Shown here piece after piece: positions 51,313 to 63,199 of a stretch of 64,000 nucleotides of DNA. Position 1 is the stretch's first letter. Each line of letters begins with the position of its first letter. Position numbers and translations under genes: made by a program. The notes beneath the pieces were generated by a model, which ran no database searches, was not told the origin of the DNA, and saw only the letters and a list, made by a program, of their open reading frames with translations. This stretch comes from Pseudomonas asgharzadehiana (GTDB lineage Bacteria > Pseudomonadota > Gammaproteobacteria > Pseudomonadales > Pseudomonadaceae): assembly GCF_019139815.1 (NCBI RefSeq), contig NZ_CP077079.1, forward strand, positions 558,001-622,000. The letters run 5' to 3'.

Positions 51313-52983
51313 GTGACCAAGCCTACAAAATACCGTGACGTTGAAATCCGCGCCGCCCGCGGTAACAAGCTCACCGCCAAAAGCTGGCTGACCGAAGCGC
51401 CGCTGCGCATGCTGATGAACAACCTCGACCCGCAGGTAGCCGAAAACCCGAAAGAACTGGTGGTGTATGGCGGTATCGGCCGTGCCGCGCGTAACTGGGA
51501 GTGCTACGACCAGATCGTCGAGAGCCTCACCCATCTGAACGACGACGAAACCCTGCTGGTGCAATCGGGCAAGCCGGTCGGCGTGTTCAAGACCCACAGC
51601 AATGCGCCGCGCGTGCTGATCGCCAACTCCAACCTGGTGCCGCACTGGGCGAGCTGGGAACACTTTAACGAACTGGATGCCAAGGGCCTGGCCATGTACG
51701 GCCAGATGACCGCTGGCAGCTGGATCTACATCGGCAGCCAAGGCATCGTGCAAGGCACCTACGAAACCTTCGTCGAGGCCGGTCGCCAGCATTACGACAG
51801 CAACCTCAAAGGTCGCTGGGTACTCACCGCCGGCCTCGGCGGCATGGGCGGGGCGCAACCTCTGGCTGCAACCCTGGCCGGTGCGTGCTCGCTGAACATC
51901 GAGTGCCAGCAGGTCAGCATCGATTTCCGCCTGGCCAGCCGCTATGTCGACGAGCAAGCCACTGACCTCGACGACGCCTTGGCCCGCATCGCCAAGTACA
52001 CCCAGGAAGGCAAGGCCATCTCGATCGCCCTGTTGGGTAACGCGGCAGAAATTTTGCCGGAGCTGGTCAAGCGCGGCGTGCGCCCGGACATGGTCACCGA
52101 CCAGACCAGCGCCCACGACCCGCTCAACGGTTACCTGCCGGCCGGCTGGACCTGGGACGAATACCGCGCCCGCGCCAAGACCGAGCCGGCTGCCGTGATC
52201 AAGGCGGCCAAACAGTCGATGGCCGTGCACGTCAAGGCCATGCTGGAATTCCAGAAACAAGGCATCCCGACCTTCGACTACGGCAACAACATTCGCCAGA
52301 TGGCCCAGGAAGAAGGCGTGGAAAACGCCTTTGATTTCCCAGGTTTCGTACCGGCGTATATCCGCCCACTGTTCTGCCGTGGTATCGGCCCGTTCCGTTG
52401 GGCGGCGCTGTCCGGCGACCCGCAGGACATCTACAAGACCGACGCCAAAGTCAAAGAACTGATCCCCGACGACGCCCACCTGCACAATTGGCTGGACATG
52501 GCCCGCGAGCGCATCAGCTTCCAGGGCTTGCCGGCGCGCATTTGTTGGGTCGGCTTGGGCCAGCGCGCCAAGCTGGGCCTTGCGTTCAACGAAATGGTAC
52601 GCAGCGGCGAGCTCTCGGCACCGGTGGTCATCGGCCGCGATCACCTCGACTCCGGCTCGGTCGCCAGCCCCAACCGCGAAACCGAATCCATGCAGGACGG
52701 CTCCGACGCCGTGTCCGACTGGCCGCTGCTTAACGCCTTGCTCAACACTGCGAGCGGCGCGACCTGGGTCTCGCTGCACCACGGTGGTGGCGTCGGCATG
52801 GGCTTCTCGCAACATTCGGGCATGGTCATCGTGTGTGACGGCACCGACGAAGCGGCCGAGCGGATTGCGCGCGTGTTGCACAACGACCCGGCGACCGGGG
52901 TGATGCGTCACGCAGACGCCGGTTACCAGATCGCCATCGACTGCGCCAAGGAGCAGGGCCTCAATCTCCCAATGATCAAATAA
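51313..52983 (+). CDS. hutU: Urocanate hydratase HutU
   Basis: A 556-residue NAD-dependent enzyme that converts urocanate to imidazolone propionate. It starts (GTG) [20 protein letters not shown]. Features: [17 protein letters not shown] (NAD site), the conserved Cys in [14 protein letters not shown] (about Cys409), and [19 protein letters not shown] near the C-terminus. GAGGAGT lies upstream of the GTG; the next in-frame ATG would cut the conserved N-terminus. It begins the inducible catabolic operon behind a sigma-54 promoter and a HutC operator. A REP element follows six bases after the stop. Confidence 0.97.
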
Positions 52984-53053: not shown

Positions 53054-54514
53054 ATGGCTGCAAACGACACCACCCCGTTGATCGAAAGGCGTTCGATCGA
53101 CTACATCCCGGAAGCGGAAAGACATGGTCGTCTCTTGAGTCAGTTCACCCTGTGGATGGGGGCCAACCTGCAAATCACCGCGATTGTCACCGGCGCCCTG
53201 GCCGTGGTGCTGGGCGGTGATGTGTTCTGGTCGCTGATCGGTCTGTTGGTCGGCCAACTGATCGGCGGCGGCGTCATGGCCTTGCATGCGGCGCAAGGGC
53301 CCAAGCTTGGCCTGCCGCAGATGATCTCCAGTCGCGTGCAATTTGGCGTGTATGGCGCGGCCATTCCGATCGTGCTGGTGTGTCTGATGTACCTGGGGTT
53401 CACCGCAACCGGCACGGTGCTTTCCGGCCAGGCGCTGGGCCAGTTGTTTGGCGTCAGCGACAGCGTTGGCATCCTGATCTTCGCCAGTGTCATCGTGCTG
53501 GTCACGGTGCTTGGCTACCGGGTGATCCACTTCATCGGGCGCGTCGCCAGCGTGGTTGGGGTGATTGCCTTTGTGTACCTGTTCAGCCGCCTGATGAGCC
53601 AGACCGACGTGGGCGCACTCCTGCAGATCCGCCATTTCAGTTGGAGCAGTTTCCTGCTGGCGGTGTCGCTCGCGGCCTCCTGGCAAATCGCGTTCGGCCC
53701 TTATGTGGCGGACTATTCACGCTACCTGCCAAGCAATACGTCCTCGGTGAAAACCTTTCTGGCCGCCGGCGCGGGTTCGGTCATCGGCGCGCAGGTGGCG
53801 ATGATTCTCGGTGTGTTTGCCGCCGCCATGTCCAATGGGCAATTCGCCGGTCACGAGGTGGCTTACATCGTGGGCCTGAGTGGTACAGGTGCTACCGCTG
53901 CCCTGCTGTATTTCAGCATTGCGTTCGGCAAGGTCACCATCTCGACGCTTAACTCCTATGGCAGCTTCATGTGCATCGCGACCATCATCAGCGGCTTTCG
54001 TGGTCGGCTGGAGGTCACGCGCCTGCAGCGCCTGGTGTTCGTGTTGGCCATCGTCGGTACGGCGACCCTGATTGCCTTGCTCGGCCAGCACTCGTTCCTG
54101 GGGGCGTTCAAATCTTTCATCCTGTTCCTGCTGGCGTTCTTCACGCCATGGAGCGCGATCAACCTGGTGGATTACTACTGCATCACCCGCGAGCGCTATG
54201 ACGTGCCGGCGTTGGCCGATCCGAACGGTCGCTACGGCCGCTGGAACGCGCTGGGTATCAGCGTGTATGTGTTCGGCGTGCTGGTGCAGTTGCCGTTCAT
54301 CTCTACCAAGTTCTACACAGGGCCTCTGGTGGCCGCGTTGGGTGACGTGGATATCTCCTGGATCATCGGCCTGGTGCTTCCCGCCGCCCTGTATTACCTG
54401 TGTGCGAAAAAATGGCACGCCAGCGTGCCCGATCAACTGATCCTGCCGGTCGAGCAGGACAGCGCTGTAGCCACGAAAACAAGCGGAGCCGGTCGCGCTG
54501 CGGCGCAGGCCTGA
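53054..54514 (+). CDS. NCS1-family permease of the hut locus, probable urocanate transporter
   Basis: A 486-residue inner-membrane transporter of the cytosine/purine (CodB-like) NCS1 family, with about twelve helices. It starts MAANDTTPLIERRSIDYIPE, the Ile-Glu-Arg-Ser-Ile lead of the family, followed by FTLWMGANLQITAIVTGALA. FGPYVADYSRYLP near residue 220 is the conserved core helix. In the hut locus of P. fluorescens this position is occupied by a transporter assigned to urocanate (hutTu); the call here is from context and family, not from a motif. It lies between hutU and hutX, with AGAGG before the ATG. Confidence 0.85.
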   Translation: MAANDTTPLIERRSIDYIPEAERHGRLLSQFTLWMGANLQITAIVTGALAVVLGGDVFWSLIGLLVGQLIGGGVMALHAAQGPKLGLPQMISSRVQFGVYGAAIPIVLVCLMYLGFTATGTVLSGQALGQLFGVSDSVGILIFASVIVLVTVLGYRVIHFIGRVASVVGVIAFVYLFSRLMSQTDVGALLQIRHFSWSSFLLAVSLAASWQIAFGPYVADYSRYLPSNTSSVKTFLAAGAGSVIGAQVAMILGVFAAAMSNGQFAGHEVAYIVGLSGTGATAALLYFSIAFGKVTISTLNSYGSFMCIATIISGFRGRLEVTRLQRLVFVLAIVGTATLIALLGQHSFLGAFKSFILFLLAFFTPWSAINLVDYYCITRERYDVPALADPNGRYGRWNALGISVYVFGVLVQLPFISTKFYTGPLVAALGDVDISWIIGLVLPAALYYLCAKKWHASVPDQLILPVEQDSAVATKTSGAGRAAAQA

Positions 54515-54582: not shown

Positions 54583-55548
54583 ATGAAAATGCATAAGACC
54601 CTGCTCACCACCTTGCTTTCTGCGGGCTTGCTGGCCAGCGCCGGCGCCCAGGCGGCGGGGTGGTGCGAGTCCGGCAAACCGGTGAAATTCGCCGGCCTGA
54701 ACTGGGAAAGCGGCATGTTGCTCACGGACATCCTGCAAACCGTGCTGGAAAAAGGCTACGACTGTAAAACCGACAGCCTGCCGGGTAACTCCATCACCAT
54801 GGAAAATGCCCTGAGCAGCAACGACATCCAAGTGTTTGCCGAAGAATGGGTGGGCCGCAGCGAAGTCTGGAACAAGGCCGAGAAGGCCGGCAAAGTCGTC
54901 GGCGTCGGCGCGCCGGTGGTGGGTGCGATTGAAGGTTGGTACGTGCCGCGCTACGTAATCGAAGGCGACGCCAAGCGCAAGCTTGCAGCCAAGGCGCCGG
55001 ACCTGAAAAACATCGCTGACCTAGCCAAATACGCCTCGGTGTTCAAAGACCAGGAAGAACCCTCCAAAGGCCGTTTCTATAACTGCCCGGCCGGCTGGAC
55101 CTGCGAGCTCGACAACAGCGAAATGCTCAAAAGCTATGGCCTGGAAAGCAGCTACACCAACTTCCGCCCAGGCACCGGCCCGGCGCTGGATGCGGCGGTG
55201 CTGTCGAGCTACAAGCGTGGCGAGCCGATCCTGTTCTACTACTGGTCGCCTACCCCGCTGATGGGCCAGGTCGACCTGGTCAAACTCGAAGAAAAACCCG
55301 GTGTGGACAAGACCGTGAGCATCAAGGTCGGCCTGTCCAAGACTTTCCACGAGCAAGCCCCGGAACTGGTGGCCGTGCTGGAGAAGGTCAACCTGCCGAT
55401 CGACCTGCTGAACCAGAACCTGGGGCGCATGGCCAAAGAGCGAATCGACTCGCCGAAATTGGCGAAGGTTTTCCTCAAGGAACATCCTGAAGTCTGGCAC
55501 GCCTGGGTCAGTGAAGACGCAGCCAAGAAAATCGACGCGGCCTTGTAG
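54583..55548 (+). CDS. hutX: Histidine ABC transporter, periplasmic binding protein HutX
   Basis: A 321-residue periplasmic protein starting MKMHKTLLTTLLSAGLLASA (signal peptide, cleavage near AQA-AG). The mature part is OpuAC-like (glycine-betaine type): KFAGLNWESGMLLTDILQ, GNSITMENALSSNDIQVFAEEW and LFYYWSPTPLMGQVDLVKLEE. Two Cys pairs (GWCESG, YDCKTD; YNCPAGWTCE) could form disulfides. It belongs with HutW and HutV downstream and feeds histidine into the pathway. I chose the ATG at 54583 because the signal peptide begins there; the frame is open to 54400. Confidence 0.92.
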   Translation: MKMHKTLLTTLLSAGLLASAGAQAAGWCESGKPVKFAGLNWESGMLLTDILQTVLEKGYDCKTDSLPGNSITMENALSSNDIQVFAEEWVGRSEVWNKAEKAGKVVGVGAPVVGAIEGWYVPRYVIEGDAKRKLAAKAPDLKNIADLAKYASVFKDQEEPSKGRFYNCPAGWTCELDNSEMLKSYGLESSYTNFRPGTGPALDAAVLSSYKRGEPILFYYWSPTPLMGQVDLVKLEEKPGVDKTVSIKVGLSKTFHEQAPELVAVLEKVNLPIDLLNQNLGRMAKERIDSPKLAKVFLKEHPEVWHAWVSEDAAKKIDAAL

Positions 55549-55619: not shown

Positions 55620-56471
55620 ATGTTTCCTGAGAGTTTTACGTTTTCCATCGCCGACTGGGTCAACGGTTGGGTGGATTCACTGGTCACCAATTACGGCGAT
55701 GTGTTCCGGCACATCTCCGACACGCTGCTGTGGGCCATCGTCAACCTGGAAGGCCTGCTGCGCGCAGCGCCGTGGTGGCTGATGCTGGCGATTGTCGGCG
55801 GCATTGCCTGGCACGCCACGCGCAAAGTACTGACCACTGCGGTAATTGTCGGCCTGCTGTTCCTGGTGGGCGCGGTTGGCCTGTGGGACAAGCTGATGCA
55901 AACCCTGGCGCTGATGATGGTCGCCACGGTGATCTCGGTGCTGATCGGCATTCCGCTGGGCATCCTGTCGGCGCGCAGCAATCGTCTGCGTTCGGTGCTG
56001 ATGCCGCTGCTCGACATCATGCAAACCATGCCCAGTTTCGTGTACCTGATCCCGGTGCTGATGCTGTTCGGCCTGGGCAAAGTCCCGGCGATTTTCGCCA
56101 CGGTGATCTACGCAGCACCGCCCTTGATTCGCCTCACCGACCTGGGGATTCGCCAGGTCGACGGCGAAGTCATGGAAGCCATCAACGCCTTCGGCGCCAA
56201 CCGCTGGCAGCAACTGTTCGGCGTACAACTGCCGTTGGCGCTGCCGAGCATCATGGCCGGCATCAACCAGACCACCATGATGGCGCTGTCGATGGTGGTG
56301 ATTGCCTCGATGATCGGCGCCCGTGGCTTGGGTGAAGACGTCCTGGTCGGCATCCAGACGCTGAACGTCGGCCGTGGCCTTGAGGCCGGGCTGGCAATCG
56401 TGATTCTTGCAGTGGTCATCGACCGCATTACCCAGGCCTATGGTCGTCCACGGCATGAGGCGAACAAATGA
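55620..56471 (+). CDS. hutW: Histidine ABC transporter, permease HutW
   Basis: A 283-residue ProW-like permease starting [20 protein letters not shown]. It has six or seven hydrophobic helices and the EAA-type loop [20 protein letters not shown] followed by [19 protein letters not shown]. The N-terminal 50 residues (ending [12 protein letters not shown]) are shorter than in E. coli ProW. The ATG at 55620 is chosen from the family N-terminus; the open frame back to 55554 is not conserved. It overlaps hutV by four bases. Confidence 0.92.
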
Positions 56472-57292
56472 CTACCGTCAGCAAAATCGAAGTCAAAAAC
56501 GTCTTCAAGATTTTCGGCAACCGTTCCCAAGAAGCGCTGGCGCTGGTTGGCCAGGGCAAGACCAAGGACCAGGTGTTGGCCGAGACCGGTTGTGTGGTTG
56601 GCGTGAACGATCTGTCCCTGAGCATCGATACCGGTGAGATCTTTGTGATCATGGGCCTGTCGGGCTCCGGCAAATCCACCCTGGTGCGCCACTTCAACCG
56701 CCTGATCGACCCCACCAGCGGCGCGATCCTGGTGGACGGCGAAGACATCCTGCAGCTGGACATGGACGCCCTGCGCCAATTTCGTCGGCACAAAATCAGC
56801 ATGGTGTTCCAGAGTTTCGGCCTGTTGCCGCACAAAACCGTGCTCGACAACGTTGCCTACGGCCTCAAGGTGCGTGGCGAAACCAAACAGGTGTGCGCCG
56901 AACGCGCGTTGCACTGGATCGAAACCGTGGGCCTCAAGGGCTACGAAAACAAATACCCGCACCAGCTTTCCGGCGGCATGCGCCAGCGCGTCGGCCTGGC
57001 CCGTGCCTTGGCGGCCGATACCGACATCATCCTGATGGACGAAGCCTTCAGCGCCCTCGACCCGCTGATCCGCGCCGAGATGCAGGACCAGTTGCTGGAG
57101 CTGCAAAAGACCCTGCACAAGACCATCGTATTTATCACCCACGACCTCGATGAGGCCGTACGCATAGGCAACCGCATTGCCATCCTCAAGGACGGCAAGC
57201 TGATCCAGGTCGGCACGCCGCGGGAGATCCTGCATTCGCCGGCGGATGAATATGTGGACCGGTTTGTTCAGCGGCGGGCGGCGGTGGTCTGA
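56468..57292 (+). CDS. hutV: Histidine ABC transporter, ATPase HutV
   Basis: A 274-residue ATPase starting [20 protein letters not shown]. Walker A is [16 protein letters not shown] (about 68), the Q-loop [14 protein letters not shown], the signature [16 protein letters not shown], Walker [14 protein letters not shown] and the switch His [10 protein letters not shown]. It is ProV-like but stops after the ATPase domain, without the two CBS domains that sense osmotic strength in ProV, so this importer is probably not osmoregulated. It ends 27 bases before a REP-like hairpin. Confidence 0.93.
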
Positions 57293-57318
57293 TCCAGGTT
57301 TTGTGGTGGGGCTACTGG

Positions 57319-57346
57319 CCTCATCGGGGGCTTGCTCCCGATGAGG
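57319..57346. repeat. REP-like hairpin between hutV and hutH1
   Basis: CCTCATCGGG / CCCGATGAGG form a perfect 10-base stem around GGCTTGCT. This is a shorter REP variant sharing GGGGCTTGCTCCCGAT with the main family. No T-run follows. Confidence 0.85.
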
Positions 57347-57381
57347 CCGGCAAAGCTGTAGAGAATATGAAGAGGTCAACC

Positions 57382-58890
57382 ATGTCCCAGGCAGCAAAAA
57401 TCATCATCGCCGATACGCCCTTGCGCTGGCAGGACGTAGTCGCCGTCGCCCGCCACGGCGCGGCGCTCGAACTCTCGGGCCAGGCCTGGGCGCGCATCGA
57501 CAATGCCCAGGCCATCGTGCAGCGCATCGTCAGCAGCGGCGAACGCGCCTACGGCGTGAATACCGGCCTGGGCGCGCTGTGCAATGTCTCGCTCGAAGGC
57601 GAGCAACTCAGCCAGCTGTCGCGCAATACCTTGCTCAGCCATGCCTGTGGCGTTGGCCCGGTACTCAGCGATGAGCAAACCCGCGCGATCATCTGCGCGG
57701 CGGTCATCAACTACAGCCACGGCAAGTCCGGCGTACACCCGCAGGTGGTGCAGGCCTTGCTGGCCCTGCTGAATCACAGCATCACGCCGCAAGTGCCCTC
57801 CCAGGGCTCGGTGGGTTACCTGACCCACATGGCCCATGTCGGCGTGGCCTTGCTGGGTGTGGGCAACGTGAGCTATCGCGGCCAGGTCGTTTCGGCGCAG
57901 CACGCATTGCAAGCCGAAGGTTTACCGCCTGTGGTACTCGGCGCCAAGGACGGCCTGTGCCTGGTCAACGGCACGCCGTGCATGACTGGCCTGAGCTGCC
58001 TGGCCCTGGCCGACGCCCATCACTTGCTGCAATGGGCCGACGTGATCGGCGCCATGAGCTTCGAGGCCCAGCGCGGTCAGATCGACGCGTTCGATGCACA
58101 GATCATCGCCCTCAAACCGCACCCCGGCATGCAGCTCGTCGGCAGCAACCTGCGGGCGCTGCTCGATGGCAGCGAAGTGATCGCCGGCAGCCAAGGCATT
58201 CGCACCCAGGACGCCTTGAGCATCCGTTCGATCCCGCAGATCCACGGCGCCGCGCGTGACCAGGTGGAACACGCCACGCGTCAGATCGAGACCGAACTCA
58301 ACAGTGCCACCGACAACCCGCTGGTGCTCGGCACCCCGGCCCATTACCGCGTGGTGTCCCAGGCCAACCCGCACGGCCAGTCCGTGGCGCTGGCCGCCGA
58401 TATGCTCGCCATTGCCATGGCCGAAATCGGCTCGGTGGCCGAACGTCGCCTGGACCGTTTGATCAACCCGCACGTCAGCGGTTTGCCGGCGTTCCTGGTG
58501 AGTCACCCCGGGGTCAATTCCGGAATGATGATCGTGCAGTACGTCGCTGCTTCGCTGTGCGGGCAAAACCGCCAGTTGGCGCAGCCGGCGGTACTCGACA
58601 ACTTCGTCACCTCGGGCCTGCAGGAAGACCACCTGAGCATGGGCACCAACGCCGCGCTCAAGCTGCACCAGGTATTGGCCAACGTTACCCAGATTCTTGC
58701 CATCGAATATCTGCTGGCGGCCCAGGCGTTCGAGTTCCTCAAGAGCCAGCGCTTTGGCGTCGGCACCGACCGCGCCTGGCGCCTGCTGCGTGAGGTCGTG
58801 CCGGCCTATGCAGAAGACCGCTGGCTGGCGCCGGATATCGCGGCGGCCGCCACATTGCTCAAAGACACCGCACTACCGAATTTGCACTAA
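57382..58890 (+). CDS. hutH1: Histidine ammonia-lyase-like protein HutH1, MIO triplet absent
   Basis: A 502-residue full-length member of the HAL/PAL lyase family starting MSQAAKIIIADTPLRWQDVV. It keeps YGVNTGLGALCNV, SHACGVG, LVNGTPCMTGLSCLALA and QEDHLSMG. However, the MIO region reads GSVGYLTHMAHVGVALLGVG (about 142-161): against HutH2 ([15 protein letters not shown]) the Ala-Ser-Gly that cyclises into the electrophilic MIO is missing, with no frameshift. The active-site Tyr of QDPYSLRC is replaced (QDALSIRS) and NFHAEPV reads NPHGQSV. Histidine ammonia-lyase activity is therefore unlikely. AGAGGT lies 7 bases before the ATG at 57382. It precedes hutH2 by 39 bases. Confidence 0.88.
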   Translation: MSQAAKIIIADTPLRWQDVVAVARHGAALELSGQAWARIDNAQAIVQRIVSSGERAYGVNTGLGALCNVSLEGEQLSQLSRNTLLSHACGVGPVLSDEQTRAIICAAVINYSHGKSGVHPQVVQALLALLNHSITPQVPSQGSVGYLTHMAHVGVALLGVGNVSYRGQVVSAQHALQAEGLPPVVLGAKDGLCLVNGTPCMTGLSCLALADAHHLLQWADVIGAMSFEAQRGQIDAFDAQIIALKPHPGMQLVGSNLRALLDGSEVIAGSQGIRTQDALSIRSIPQIHGAARDQVEHATRQIETELNSATDNPLVLGTPAHYRVVSQANPHGQSVALAADMLAIAMAEIGSVAERRLDRLINPHVSGLPAFLVSHPGVNSGMMIVQYVAASLCGQNRQLAQPAVLDNFVTSGLQEDHLSMGTNAALKLHQVLANVTQILAIEYLLAAQAFEFLKSQRFGVGTDRAWRLLREVVPAYAEDRWLAPDIAAAATLLKDTALPNLH

Positions 58891-58929: not shown

Positions 58930-60462
58930 GTGACTGCGCTAAACCTGATTCCAGGCCAATTGAGCCTCGCCCAACTGCGTGCCATCTACCAGCAGCCGGT
59001 AACCCTCAGCCTGGATGACAGCGCCACGGCCCAGATCGAAGCCAGCGTTGCGTGCGTGGAGCAGATTCTCGCCGAGAACCGCACGGCCTATGGCATCAAC
59101 ACCGGTTTCGGCTTGCTTGCGTCCACCCGCATCGCCAGCGAAGACCTGGAAAACCTGCAGCGCTCCCTAGTGCTGTCCCATGCCGCCGGCGTCGGCGAGC
59201 CGATCAGCGATGCGCTGGTGCGGCTGGTCATGGTGCTCAAGGTCAACAGCTTGAGCCGTGGGTTTTCGGGGATTCGTCGGCAGGTGATCGATGCGTTGAT
59301 CGCGCTGATCAATGCCGAGGTGTACCCGCATATTCCGTTGAAAGGCTCGGTGGGCGCTTCCGGTGACCTGGCGCCGTTGGCCCACATGTCCTTGGTACTG
59401 CTCGGCGAAGGCAAGGCGCGCTACAAAGGTGAATGGCTGGAGGCGACGCAAGCGCTGAAAGTCGCCGGCCTCACGCCGCTGACCCTGGCCGCCAAAGAAG
59501 GCCTGGCGCTGCTCAACGGCACCCAGGTCTCCACGGCCTATGCCTTGCGCGGCCTGTTCGAAGGCGAAGACCTGTTCGCCGGCGCCCTGGCGTGTGGCGG
59601 CCTCACCGTGGAAGCGGTGCTCGGTTCGCGCTCGCCGTTCGACGCATGCATTCACGCCGCCCGTGGCCAGCGTGGGCAGATCGATTCGGCCGCCGCCTAC
59701 CGCGATCTGCTCGGCGAAAGCAGCCAGGTCTCGCAGTCGCACCAGAACTGCGACAAGGTTCAAGACCCGTACTCCCTGCGCTGCCAGCCACAAGTGATGG
59801 GCGCCTGCCTCACCCAATTGCGCCAGGCTGCCGAGGTGCTGGTGGTCGAAGCCAACGCCGTGTCGGATAACCCGTTGGTCTTCGCGGCCGAAGGTGACGT
59901 GATCTCCGGCGGCAACTTCCACGCCGAACCGGTGGCCATGGCGGCTGACAACATGGCGCTGGCCATCGCCGAAATCGGCTCGCTCAGTGAGCGTCGCATC
60001 TCGTTGATGATGGACAAGCACATGTCGCAACTGCCGCCGTTCCTGGTCGGCAATGGCGGCGTGAACTCCGGTTTCATGATCGCCCAGGTCACCGCAGCCG
60101 CATTGGCCAGCGAGAACAAGGCACTGGCCCATCCCCATAGCGTCGACAGCCTGCCGACCTCCGCCAACCAGGAAGACCACGTGTCGATGGCCCCGGCTGC
60201 GGGCAAGCGCCTGTGGGAAATGGCCGAGAACACCCGTGGCATCCTGGCCGTCGAATGGCTGGCGGCATGCCAGGGCCTGGACCTGCGCGAAGGCCTGAAA
60301 ACCTCGCCCAAGCTGGAAAAGGCCCGCGGCATCCTGCGTGACAAAGTGGCGTTCTATGAAAAGGACCGCTTCTTCGCCCCGGACATCATCGCCGCCAGCG
60401 AACTGCTCGCCAGCCGCTGCCTGAATGAGCTGGTGCCGGCCGAGCTGCTGCCGAGCCTGTAA
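58930..60462 (+). CDS. hutH2: Histidine ammonia-lyase HutH2, MIO triplet present
   Basis: A 510-residue enzyme that deaminates histidine to trans-urocanate, the entry step of the pathway. It starts (GTG) [20 protein letters not shown]. The MIO triplet Ala143-Ser144-Gly145 is in [16 protein letters not shown], with [41 protein letters not shown] and [13 protein letters not shown] completing the active site. AAGGAG lies 8 bases before the GTG; the ATG at 58928 overlaps it but reads straight into TGA. It is the likely functional lyase of the locus, in contrast to the HutH1 neighbour. Confidence 0.97.
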
Positions 60463-61993: not shown

Positions 61994-63199
61994 ATGAAAA
62001 CCCTTTGGCAACACTGCCACGTCGCAACCATGGCAGGCGGCAACTACTCGATCATCGAGGATGCCGCCATGGTCACTGCCGGCTCGCTGATTGAGTGGAT
62101 CGGCCCGCGCAGCGAAGTACCGGTGGCGGATTACGCCCAACGGCACGACCTGCAAGGCGCGTGGGTCACCCCCGGGCTGATTGACTGCCACACCCACACG
62201 GTGTTCGGCGGCAATCGCAGCGGCGAATTCGAGCAACGCCTTCAGGGCGTGAGCTACGCCGAGATCGCGGCCCAGGGCGGCGGTATTGCCAGCACCGTGC
62301 GTGCCACCCGCGCTGCCACCGAAGACGAACTGTTTGCCGGCGCGCACAAGCGCCTGCGCAGTTTGCTGCGTGATGGCGTGACCACCGTGGAGATCAAGTC
62401 CGGCTACGGCCTGGACCTGGCCAACGAACGCAAGATGCTGCGCGTGGCTCGTCGCCTGGGTGAAGCGTTGCCGGTCAGCGTGCGCGCCACCTGCCTGGCG
62501 GCCCATGCGTTACCGCCCGAGTACAAGGACCATGCCGACGATTACATCGAGCACATCTGCAACGAGATGCTTCCGGCGCTGGCGGCTGAAGGGCTGGTGG
62601 ATGCGGTGGATGCGTTCTGCGAATACCTGGCGTTTTCCACCGAGCAGGTGGAGCGAGTCTTCCAGGTTGCGCGGCAACTGGGCCTGCCGGTGAAGCTGCA
62701 CGCCGAGCAACTGTCGTCGCTGCACGGCTCCAGCTTGGCGGCGCGTTACCAGGCGTTGTCGGCGGACCACCTGGAATTCATGACTGAAGAAGATGCCATC
62801 GCCATGGCCGCCGCCGGCACCGTCGCGGTCTTGCTGCCGGGTGCGTTTTACTTCCTGCGTGAAACCCAGTTGCCGCCGATGGACGCGTTGCGCAAGCACG
62901 GCGTGAAGATCGCCATCGCCAGCGACCTCAACCCTGGCACCTCGCCGGCGCTGTCGGTGCGCCTGATGTTGAACATGGCCTGCACCCTGTTCCGAATGAC
63001 CCCGGAAGAAGCCCTGGCCGGCGCCACGCAACATGCGGCGACCGCGTTGGGCATGGGCGACACCCACGGTTCGCTGGAAGTGGGCAAGGTTGCCGACTTT
63101 GTCGCCTGGCAGATCGATCGCCCCGCCGACCTGGCCTACTGGCTGGGCGGCGAACTGGATAAACGCGTCGTGCGCCATGGCGTCGACGTCACCGTTTAA
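61994..63199 (+). CDS. hutI: Imidazolonepropionase HutI
   Basis: A 401-residue amidohydrolase that opens the ring of imidazolone propionate to formimino-glutamate, the third step. It starts [20 protein letters not shown]. Metal and substrate residues: [52 protein letters not shown], and [19 protein letters not shown] with the C-terminal Asp. GGGAGG precedes the ATG at 61994; a TTG one codon earlier is less likely. HutG begins 12 bases after the stop. Confidence 0.97.

Follow-up and report, generated by a model that had tools for sequence, protein, structure and literature searches.

What does a protein of the histidine ammonia-lyase (HAL) fold do when it lacks the residues from which that fold builds its cofactor? 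The question is raised by hutH1, a gene of the histidine utilization (hut) operon in the 64,000-nucleotide stretch of Pseudomonas asgharzadehiana that we analysed (NZ_CP077079.1, positions 558,001 to 622,000; hereafter the window). Ammonia loss in the HAL fold follows an established route, by way of the methylidene-imidazolone cofactor (MIO) formed when an Ala-Ser-Gly triplet cyclises. HutH1, whose gene adjoins that of the canonical histidase HutH2, is predicted to be unable to form MIO because the triplet is absent. We regard it as an enzyme and no relic, since six presumed substrate-binding and acid-base residues are invariant and the gene is under purifying selection, and most likely as a lyase of some N-methylated histidine. 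The features on which this argument turns are:

57382..58890, + strand: hutH1, HAL-fold protein of 502 aa without the MIO triplet (open reading frame, ORF; Pfam PF00221; AlphaFold model)
57805..57840, + strand: GSVGYLTHMAHV, the MIO-less motif, with Tyr replacing Ala-Ser-Gly-Asp (read from the sequence)
58207..58230, + strand: QDALSIRS, Tyr280 (P. putida HAL numbering) replaced by Leu, Gln277 and Arg283 retained
58366..58386, + strand: NPHGQSV, Phe329 replaced by Pro in the window HutH1, by Ala in most other core rows of the HutH1 alignment
58930..60462, + strand: hutH2, canonical MIO histidase of 510 aa, Ala-Ser-Gly at 59356-59364 (TIGR01225 729.1 bits, cut-off 539.15)

The hutH1 ORF begins with ATG and is open and intact over its 502 codons, as the initial annotation had stated in finding no frameshift or stop. 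HutH1 and HutH2 are 38-39% identical, and in their pairwise alignment HutH1 reads GSVGY---LTHMAHV at the site where HutH2 carries the MIO triplet. The gap lies between a Gly codon (57814-57816) and a Tyr codon (57817-57819), exactly where a three-residue gap removing the triplet had been placed, and the changes from QDPYSLRC to QDALSIRS and from NFHAEPV to NPHGQSV are likewise present as described. The earlier wording that exactly Ala-Ser-Gly is missing is right about the triplet and needs refinement in one respect, because Ala142-Ser143-Gly144-Asp145 is, as aligned, exchanged for a single conserved Tyr (numbering anchored by the PDB titles of the P. putida HAL mutants D145A, Y280F, F329A and F329G). 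At position 329 the 25 core HutH1 rows have Ala in 13 and Pro in 12. We take Tyr280 and Phe329 to be MIO-side residues of the HAL active site, and Tyr53, His83, Asn195, Gln277, Arg283 and Glu414 to be its substrate-binding and acid-base groups, which hold carboxylate and imidazole; these six are invariant in HutH1 (25 of 25 core rows and 32 of 32 in a wider set).

Family models place HutH1 squarely in the fold and at the edge of the histidases. It matches the aromatic amino acid lyase family PF00221 at 551.8 bits and passes the broad NCBIfam histidase model NF006871 (549.4 bits, cut-off 524), and it falls narrowly below the NCBIfam equivalog TIGR01225 (536.9 bits, cut-off 539.15). An AlphaFold model built with a 33-row alignment (pLDDT, the predicted local distance difference test, 91.3) predicts the HAL fold across almost the full length; folding from the single sequence gave pLDDT 35.6, and the 33-row model was the one used. 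HutH1 thus has none of the features that define a MIO-dependent histidase (EC 4.3.1.3), namely Ala-Ser-Gly, Tyr280 with Phe329, and a TIGR01225 score above cut-off, and by the chemistry that defines that family its sequence puts it outside the histidine ammonia-lyases. Compared with the type enzyme, P. putida HutH (EC 4.3.1.3, PDB 1b8f), it is without the triplet, Tyr280 and Phe329.

The MIO-less site is widespread. HutH1 matches (E ≤ 1e-120) occurred in 208 of 298 Pseudomonas genomes, and an exact coding pattern for GSVGYLTHMAH, the first 11 residues of the motif, in 204 of the 298; the HutH1-positive genomes without it (G269, G291, G361 and G477) gave the four weakest HutH1 matches, and a reversed control of the pattern had zero hits among the matches listed for the same 298 genomes. 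The triplet was absent at all 29 Pseudomonas loci read besides the window. A scan of named genomes gave 589 confirmed candidates, and the best 80 of these (below, the best named loci) were without exception devoid of the triplet, carried Leu for Tyr280 and showed GS[VA]GYL, QD[PA]LS, QED and YG[IV][NT]TG. Both the gap and the loss of Tyr280, first noted in the window protein, are therefore conserved among orthologues. Because the Tyr that replaces Ala-Ser-Gly-Asp is identical in 25 of 25 core rows and 80 of 80 best named loci, we read it as a conserved new site, more than a hole. Omega, the ratio of nonsynonymous to synonymous substitution rates (dN/dS), was 0.063-0.118 for HutH1 over 32 pairs, indicating purifying selection, and the initial view of a maintained gene, not a decaying pseudogene, is borne out by these values and the 204 genomes with the exact motif.

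Outside Pseudomonas, a tblastn search of plasmids found copies in Erwinia (72%) and in Burkholderia and Rhizobium (about 52%); those fetched read GSVGY---LTHMAHV or GSAGY---LTHNAH[TN], and the Erwinia copy is accompanied by its own importer. An Agrobacterium member (L069) had matches at E ≤ 1e-80 in 23 of 398 genomes across the phylum, with GSxGY at all 24 matching loci. For a tree, 70 rows were chosen and the MIO columns taken out; most of the 173 extracted proteins, near-duplicates above all, were not included. Its 25 HutH1-type rows form one clade (SH-aLRT 100) extending to Erwinia, Burkholderiaceae and Rhizobiaceae, 30 MIO histidases form a separate clade (support 97), and four ergothionase-type rows form a third (100); a Klebsiella/Agrobacterium (L072) pair and a Priestia/L101 pair fall outside all three. 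The outgroup included a third HAL-fold gene of the P. asgharzadehiana genome, located outside the window and with its MIO triplet present (L003; G000:C1:696649-698013). Grouping tests on one versus several MIO losses rejected neither grouping (p 0.63 and 0.685, the value for one common MIO-less clade being 0.63). By its sequence we assign HutH1, a conserved protein, to a MIO-free lineage within the HAL fold.

The genomic setting suggests what such a protein might act on. The window order is hutU, an NCS1 transporter, hutXWV, hutH1, hutH2, an amino acid permease, hutI and hutG, with these further features:

51313..52983, + strand: hutU, urocanase (ORF; named by match to the annotated hutU of the Klebsiella hut cluster L076)
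53054..54514, + strand: NCS1-family transporter in the hutTu position, taken as hutTu from that position
54583..55548, + strand: hutX, binding protein of OpuAC type (betaine family)
55620..56471, + strand: hutW, betaine/choline-type permease of an ATP-binding cassette (ABC) transporter, by its best models, which score below their cut-offs
56468..57292, + strand: hutV, ABC ATPase of the betaine/proline/choline family (TIGR01186 above cut-off)
57317..57348, no strand: 12-bp perfect inverted repeat with 8-base loop, REP-like, in the 89-base hutV-hutH1 gap (found by eye)
61994..63199, + strand: hutI, imidazolonepropionase (ORF; named by match to the annotated hutI in L065)

HutX has two box Trp, Trp172 and Trp221, which line up with Trp140 and Trp188 of E. 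coli ProX (chain 1r9l). HutX matches (E ≤ 1e-110) were found in 198 of the 298 Pseudomonas genomes; HutH1 and HutX were both present in 195, HutH1 only in 13, HutX only in 3 and neither in 87, an association inflated by relatedness. In P. fluorescens SBW25 hutTu is the urocanate transporter, according to a review (PMC8871633).

What was observed, namely the absent triplet, its conservation, the kept active-site residues, the predicted fold and the linkage to hut and importer genes, points to a lyase with changed chemistry. HutH1 is probably a lyase that works without MIO and yields urocanate or a close analogue. Our leading, still tentative, proposal for its substrate is histidine betaine (hercynine, N-alpha-trimethylhistidine), imported by HutXWV and split without MIO into urocanate and trimethylamine. 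Catalysis, the urocanate product, the trimethylamine leaving group and the hercynine substrate are all proposed here from sequence, and the steps would run as follows. HutXWV would import hercynine; HutH1 would hold this histidine-like substrate through the retained carboxylate and imidazole groups, take the beta-proton and expel the tertiary amine. MIO would be dispensable because trimethylammonium should be a better leaving group than ammonia, so that no electrophile is needed. The urocanate would be broken down by HutU, HutI and HutF/G and would relieve repression by HutC, which acts in the absence of urocanate according to PMC8871633.

We favor hercynine because no simpler histidine derivative combines a leaving group better than ammonia with an elimination product that would be ordinary urocanate, because the carboxylate and imidazole residues are kept and the gene has a betaine-family importer beside it in Pseudomonas, and because ergothionase and EgtU offer precedents. 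Ergothionase runs the same chemistry on the 2-thio analogue: it has an ammonia-lyase fold without MIO and converts ergothioneine to trimethylamine and thiourocanate (PMC13405746). The ergothioneine importer EgtU is a precedent for recognition of a histidine betaine by a binding protein of the betaine family, through an aromatic cage; it is a different transporter from HutXWV, specific for ergothioneine and with only a small response to hercynine (PMC9732360). Somewhat more doubtfully, hutXWV-hutH1 as a whole may be an import-and-cleave module for histidine betaine and a second MIO-free trimethylamine-lyase lineage that lost MIO by its own route, carried by about two thirds of sampled Pseudomonas species, many rhizobia and Burkholderiaceae and drawing on histidine betaine from fungi, cyanobacteria and actinobacteria.

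Several loci suggest urocanate as the product. A Klebsiella pneumoniae plasmid hut cluster (L076; NZ_CP138707.1, 151854-165197) comprises hutG, hutI, an NCS1-type permease, hutU, an importer, a MIO-less lyase, hutD, hutC and hutF, and the plasmid has a single lyase place at E ≤ 1e-30, the MIO-less one; at E ≤ 1e-95 this lyase has matches in 162 Klebsiella plasmid records. On a Priestia plasmid, hutU, hutI and an agmatinase-family gene occur together with a MIO-less lyase, here too at the only lyase place. Within the HutH1 clade, a Pseudogemmobacter locus (L182) encodes HutC, F, I, G, U and D, with HutH2 absent from its flanks, and in genome G815 a HutH1-type and an ergothionase-type lyase accompany a full hut cluster. 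The two G815 lyases lie in one hut region (L117, 9481-11037 and 5513-7045, the latter reading GSLGAADL); no MIO histidase was found in G815 at E ≤ 1e-50, its only other HAL-like gene being of the GHFYGG kind and no histidase. In 20 further loci, at least two of HutU, HutI, HutG and HutF lay within 20 kb in 16, HutC alone in 2 and none in 2. Among the best named loci, at least one of these four catabolic genes was in the flanks of 25, and hutC or at least one of the four in those of 74.

A number of points weigh against the hercynine proposal. The importer leaves the substrate unsettled, because amino-acid (PAAT) importers are commoner than betaine-type ones: a betaine-type (OpuA) importer, the kind that bears the two box Trp in the window, precedes the gene in 22 of the best named loci, a PAAT importer is linked to it in 43 and neither type in 15. 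HutXWV itself is described as taking part in histidine uptake (PMC8871633), so an importer for betaines only is not favored. The Klebsiella-plasmid and Priestia lyases fall outside the 25-row HutH1 clade, and their contexts therefore bear on the wider MIO-less group more than on HutH1. A MIO histidase was also found in 19 of 20 genomes carrying the HutH1-type gene (Ala-Ser-Gly read in 19 of 19), so a urocanate product is not forced there; in those genomes HutH1 is an addition to, and no substitute for, histidine breakdown, which agrees with the report that hutH1 is not required for growth on histidine (PMC8871633), a dispensability that the initial annotation had correctly mentioned for P. fluorescens. 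The pace of evolution is about threefold higher in HutH1 than in HutH2 (median dN/dS relative to the window protein 0.078 and 0.025, 32 pairs each). Six of the best named loci lack both hutC and any hut catabolic gene in their flanks, as do L109 and L116. Ergothioneine may be the substrate of the beta-proteobacterial HutH1 subclade (compare the Burkholderia HME13 ergothionase), an Agrobacterium pAtA6 locus suggests that at least one member acts on betaines bearing sulfur, and turnover of hercynine by HutH1 is itself something we infer.

The last points lead to the best of the alternatives, a MIO-free lyase with another substrate, which we consider rather unlikely: ergothioneine or its sulfonate (giving thiourocanate or sulfo-urocanate), N-alpha-mono- or dimethylhistidine, or imidazolyl-lactate (by loss of water). 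The solved precedent that we found is a MIO-less ergothionase, and the pAtA6 relative L069 lies beside a molybdopterin S/N-oxide reductase and an amidohydrolase, a neighborhood that recalls the ergothioneine sulfonate pathway reportedly present in Agrobacterium radiobacter. A SolA-type N-methyl amino acid oxidase gene follows the lyase gene in several rhizobia (5 of the best named loci), suggesting monomethylated amino acids. When 120 Burkholderiaceae genomes were searched with the ergothionase-type L071, all 24 hits at E ≤ 1e-70 were MIO histidases, so the Burkholderia ergothionase could be another MIO-less type. The active site argues against ergothioneine: Phe329 and an acidic residue (Asp/Glu) at 330 are kept in all four ergothionase-type rows, whereas all 25 HutH1 core rows lack Phe329 and have His or Val at 330. 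The window part of the operon, in which some ORFs lack identification, contains the usual hut genes, and none of its genes evidently serves a thio- or sulfo-product.

Membership of HutH1 in the Treponema denticola ergothionase lineage was rejected. That enzyme (PDB 6s7j) shares with HutH1 a HAL fold without MIO, and Leu for Tyr280 is common to the ergothionase-type (4 of 4) and HutH1 (25 of 25) rows. Its site reads SSIGEGDITTLSHI, one residue shorter than HAL and with Asp kept, whereas GSVGY---L in HutH1 is a different lesion; it has lost Asn195, which HutH1 keeps; and HutH1 stands on a separate branch (support 100) with His/Val at 330.

It is improbable that HutH1 is a catalytically dead paralogue retained as a binding protein, regulator or HutH2 partner subunit, even though it lacks MIO and two more active-site residues and its gene adjoins hutH2. 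The six presumed substrate and acid-base residues are invariant, a new Tyr is conserved, the Erwinia plasmid copy has its own importer, and HutH1 or a MIO-less relative is the sole lyase found in some hut clusters. Of the three roles initially suggested, a lyase with different chemistry is the best supported; a histidine- or urocanate-binding regulator is disfavored by the six kept residues, and obligate partnership with HutH2 is disfavored, and was rejected, on the grounds of those lone MIO-less lyases and of G815, where no MIO histidase was found at E ≤ 1e-50.

More improbable still is a slow or specialized histidine ammonia-lyase working without MIO. The gene's annotation as histidine ammonia-lyase, its pass over the NF006871 cut-off and the hut cluster of G815 with no MIO histidase detected at E ≤ 1e-50 would fit; they stand against the established role of MIO in ammonia loss, the MIO histidase present besides in 19 of 20 genomes, the score just below TIGR01225 and the dispensability of hutH1 on histidine (PMC8871633). 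A sequencing error or a pseudogene freshly without its triplet, for which we found nothing in favor, is dismissed by the exact motif in 204 of 298 genomes, the 80 of 80 best named loci and the omega values.

The distinction matters since the annotated records examined mostly call the HutH1-type gene a histidine ammonia-lyase, and pathway reconstructions consequently count two histidases where one enzyme probably acts otherwise. If true, the hercynine proposal would account for the dispensability of hutH1 on histidine, supply a substrate for HutXWV and provide a genetic marker of organisms that use histidine betaine. In biocrust, according to one study (PMC4595634), a cyanobacterium releases histidine betaine, the isolates studied do not take it up and soil water is depleted of it, from which its authors concluded that other microorganisms use it; HutH1 could answer who consumes histidine betaine in soil, would be an extra source of trimethylamine there, and would be a natural case of a cofactor-dependent lyase fold operating without its cofactor.

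The fold has other MIO-less proteins as well. The Klebsiella-plasmid (L070) and Agrobacterium (L072) lyases share with HutH1 GSVGY---L and Leu for Tyr280; they differ in having Gly/Ser for Asn195 and LIATAH or LIATSH for LTHMAH, and in lying outside the 25-row clade. A third MIO-less type, GSVGYL[GA]PE[GA]H, keeps Tyr280 and Phe329 with Asp at 330 and was seen in one genome of the window's family (L101; G579:C1:3171496-3172947) and three of Burkholderiaceae (L258, L259, L260); a search of the 120 Burkholderiaceae genomes with the Klebsiella type matched 56, and the 20 loci read were 17 MIO histidases and 3 GSVGYLAPEAH proteins. This third type is a candidate for the Burkholderia ergothionase.

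On an Agrobacterium tumefaciens plasmid (L072:3932-5479) the MIO-less lyase, GSVGYLIATSHI, is followed by a CoA transferase, a 3-hydroxyacyl-CoA dehydrogenase and an enoyl-CoA hydratase, an arrangement that would suit an aryl-acrylate product broken down via its CoA ester and derived perhaps from another aromatic betaine. Family scans of some neighbors revealed no partner shared by the orphan loci L171, L195, L203 and L223, and the one neighbor protein scanned at L223 gave no family. L195 and L203 have tsaD/folB neighbors, and in Ciceribacter sichuanensis (L171:8001-13752), with no hut markers nearby, the genes that come after the HutH1-type lyase encode a cytochrome c protein and iron-sulfur and molybdopterin subunits resembling those of xanthine dehydrogenase.
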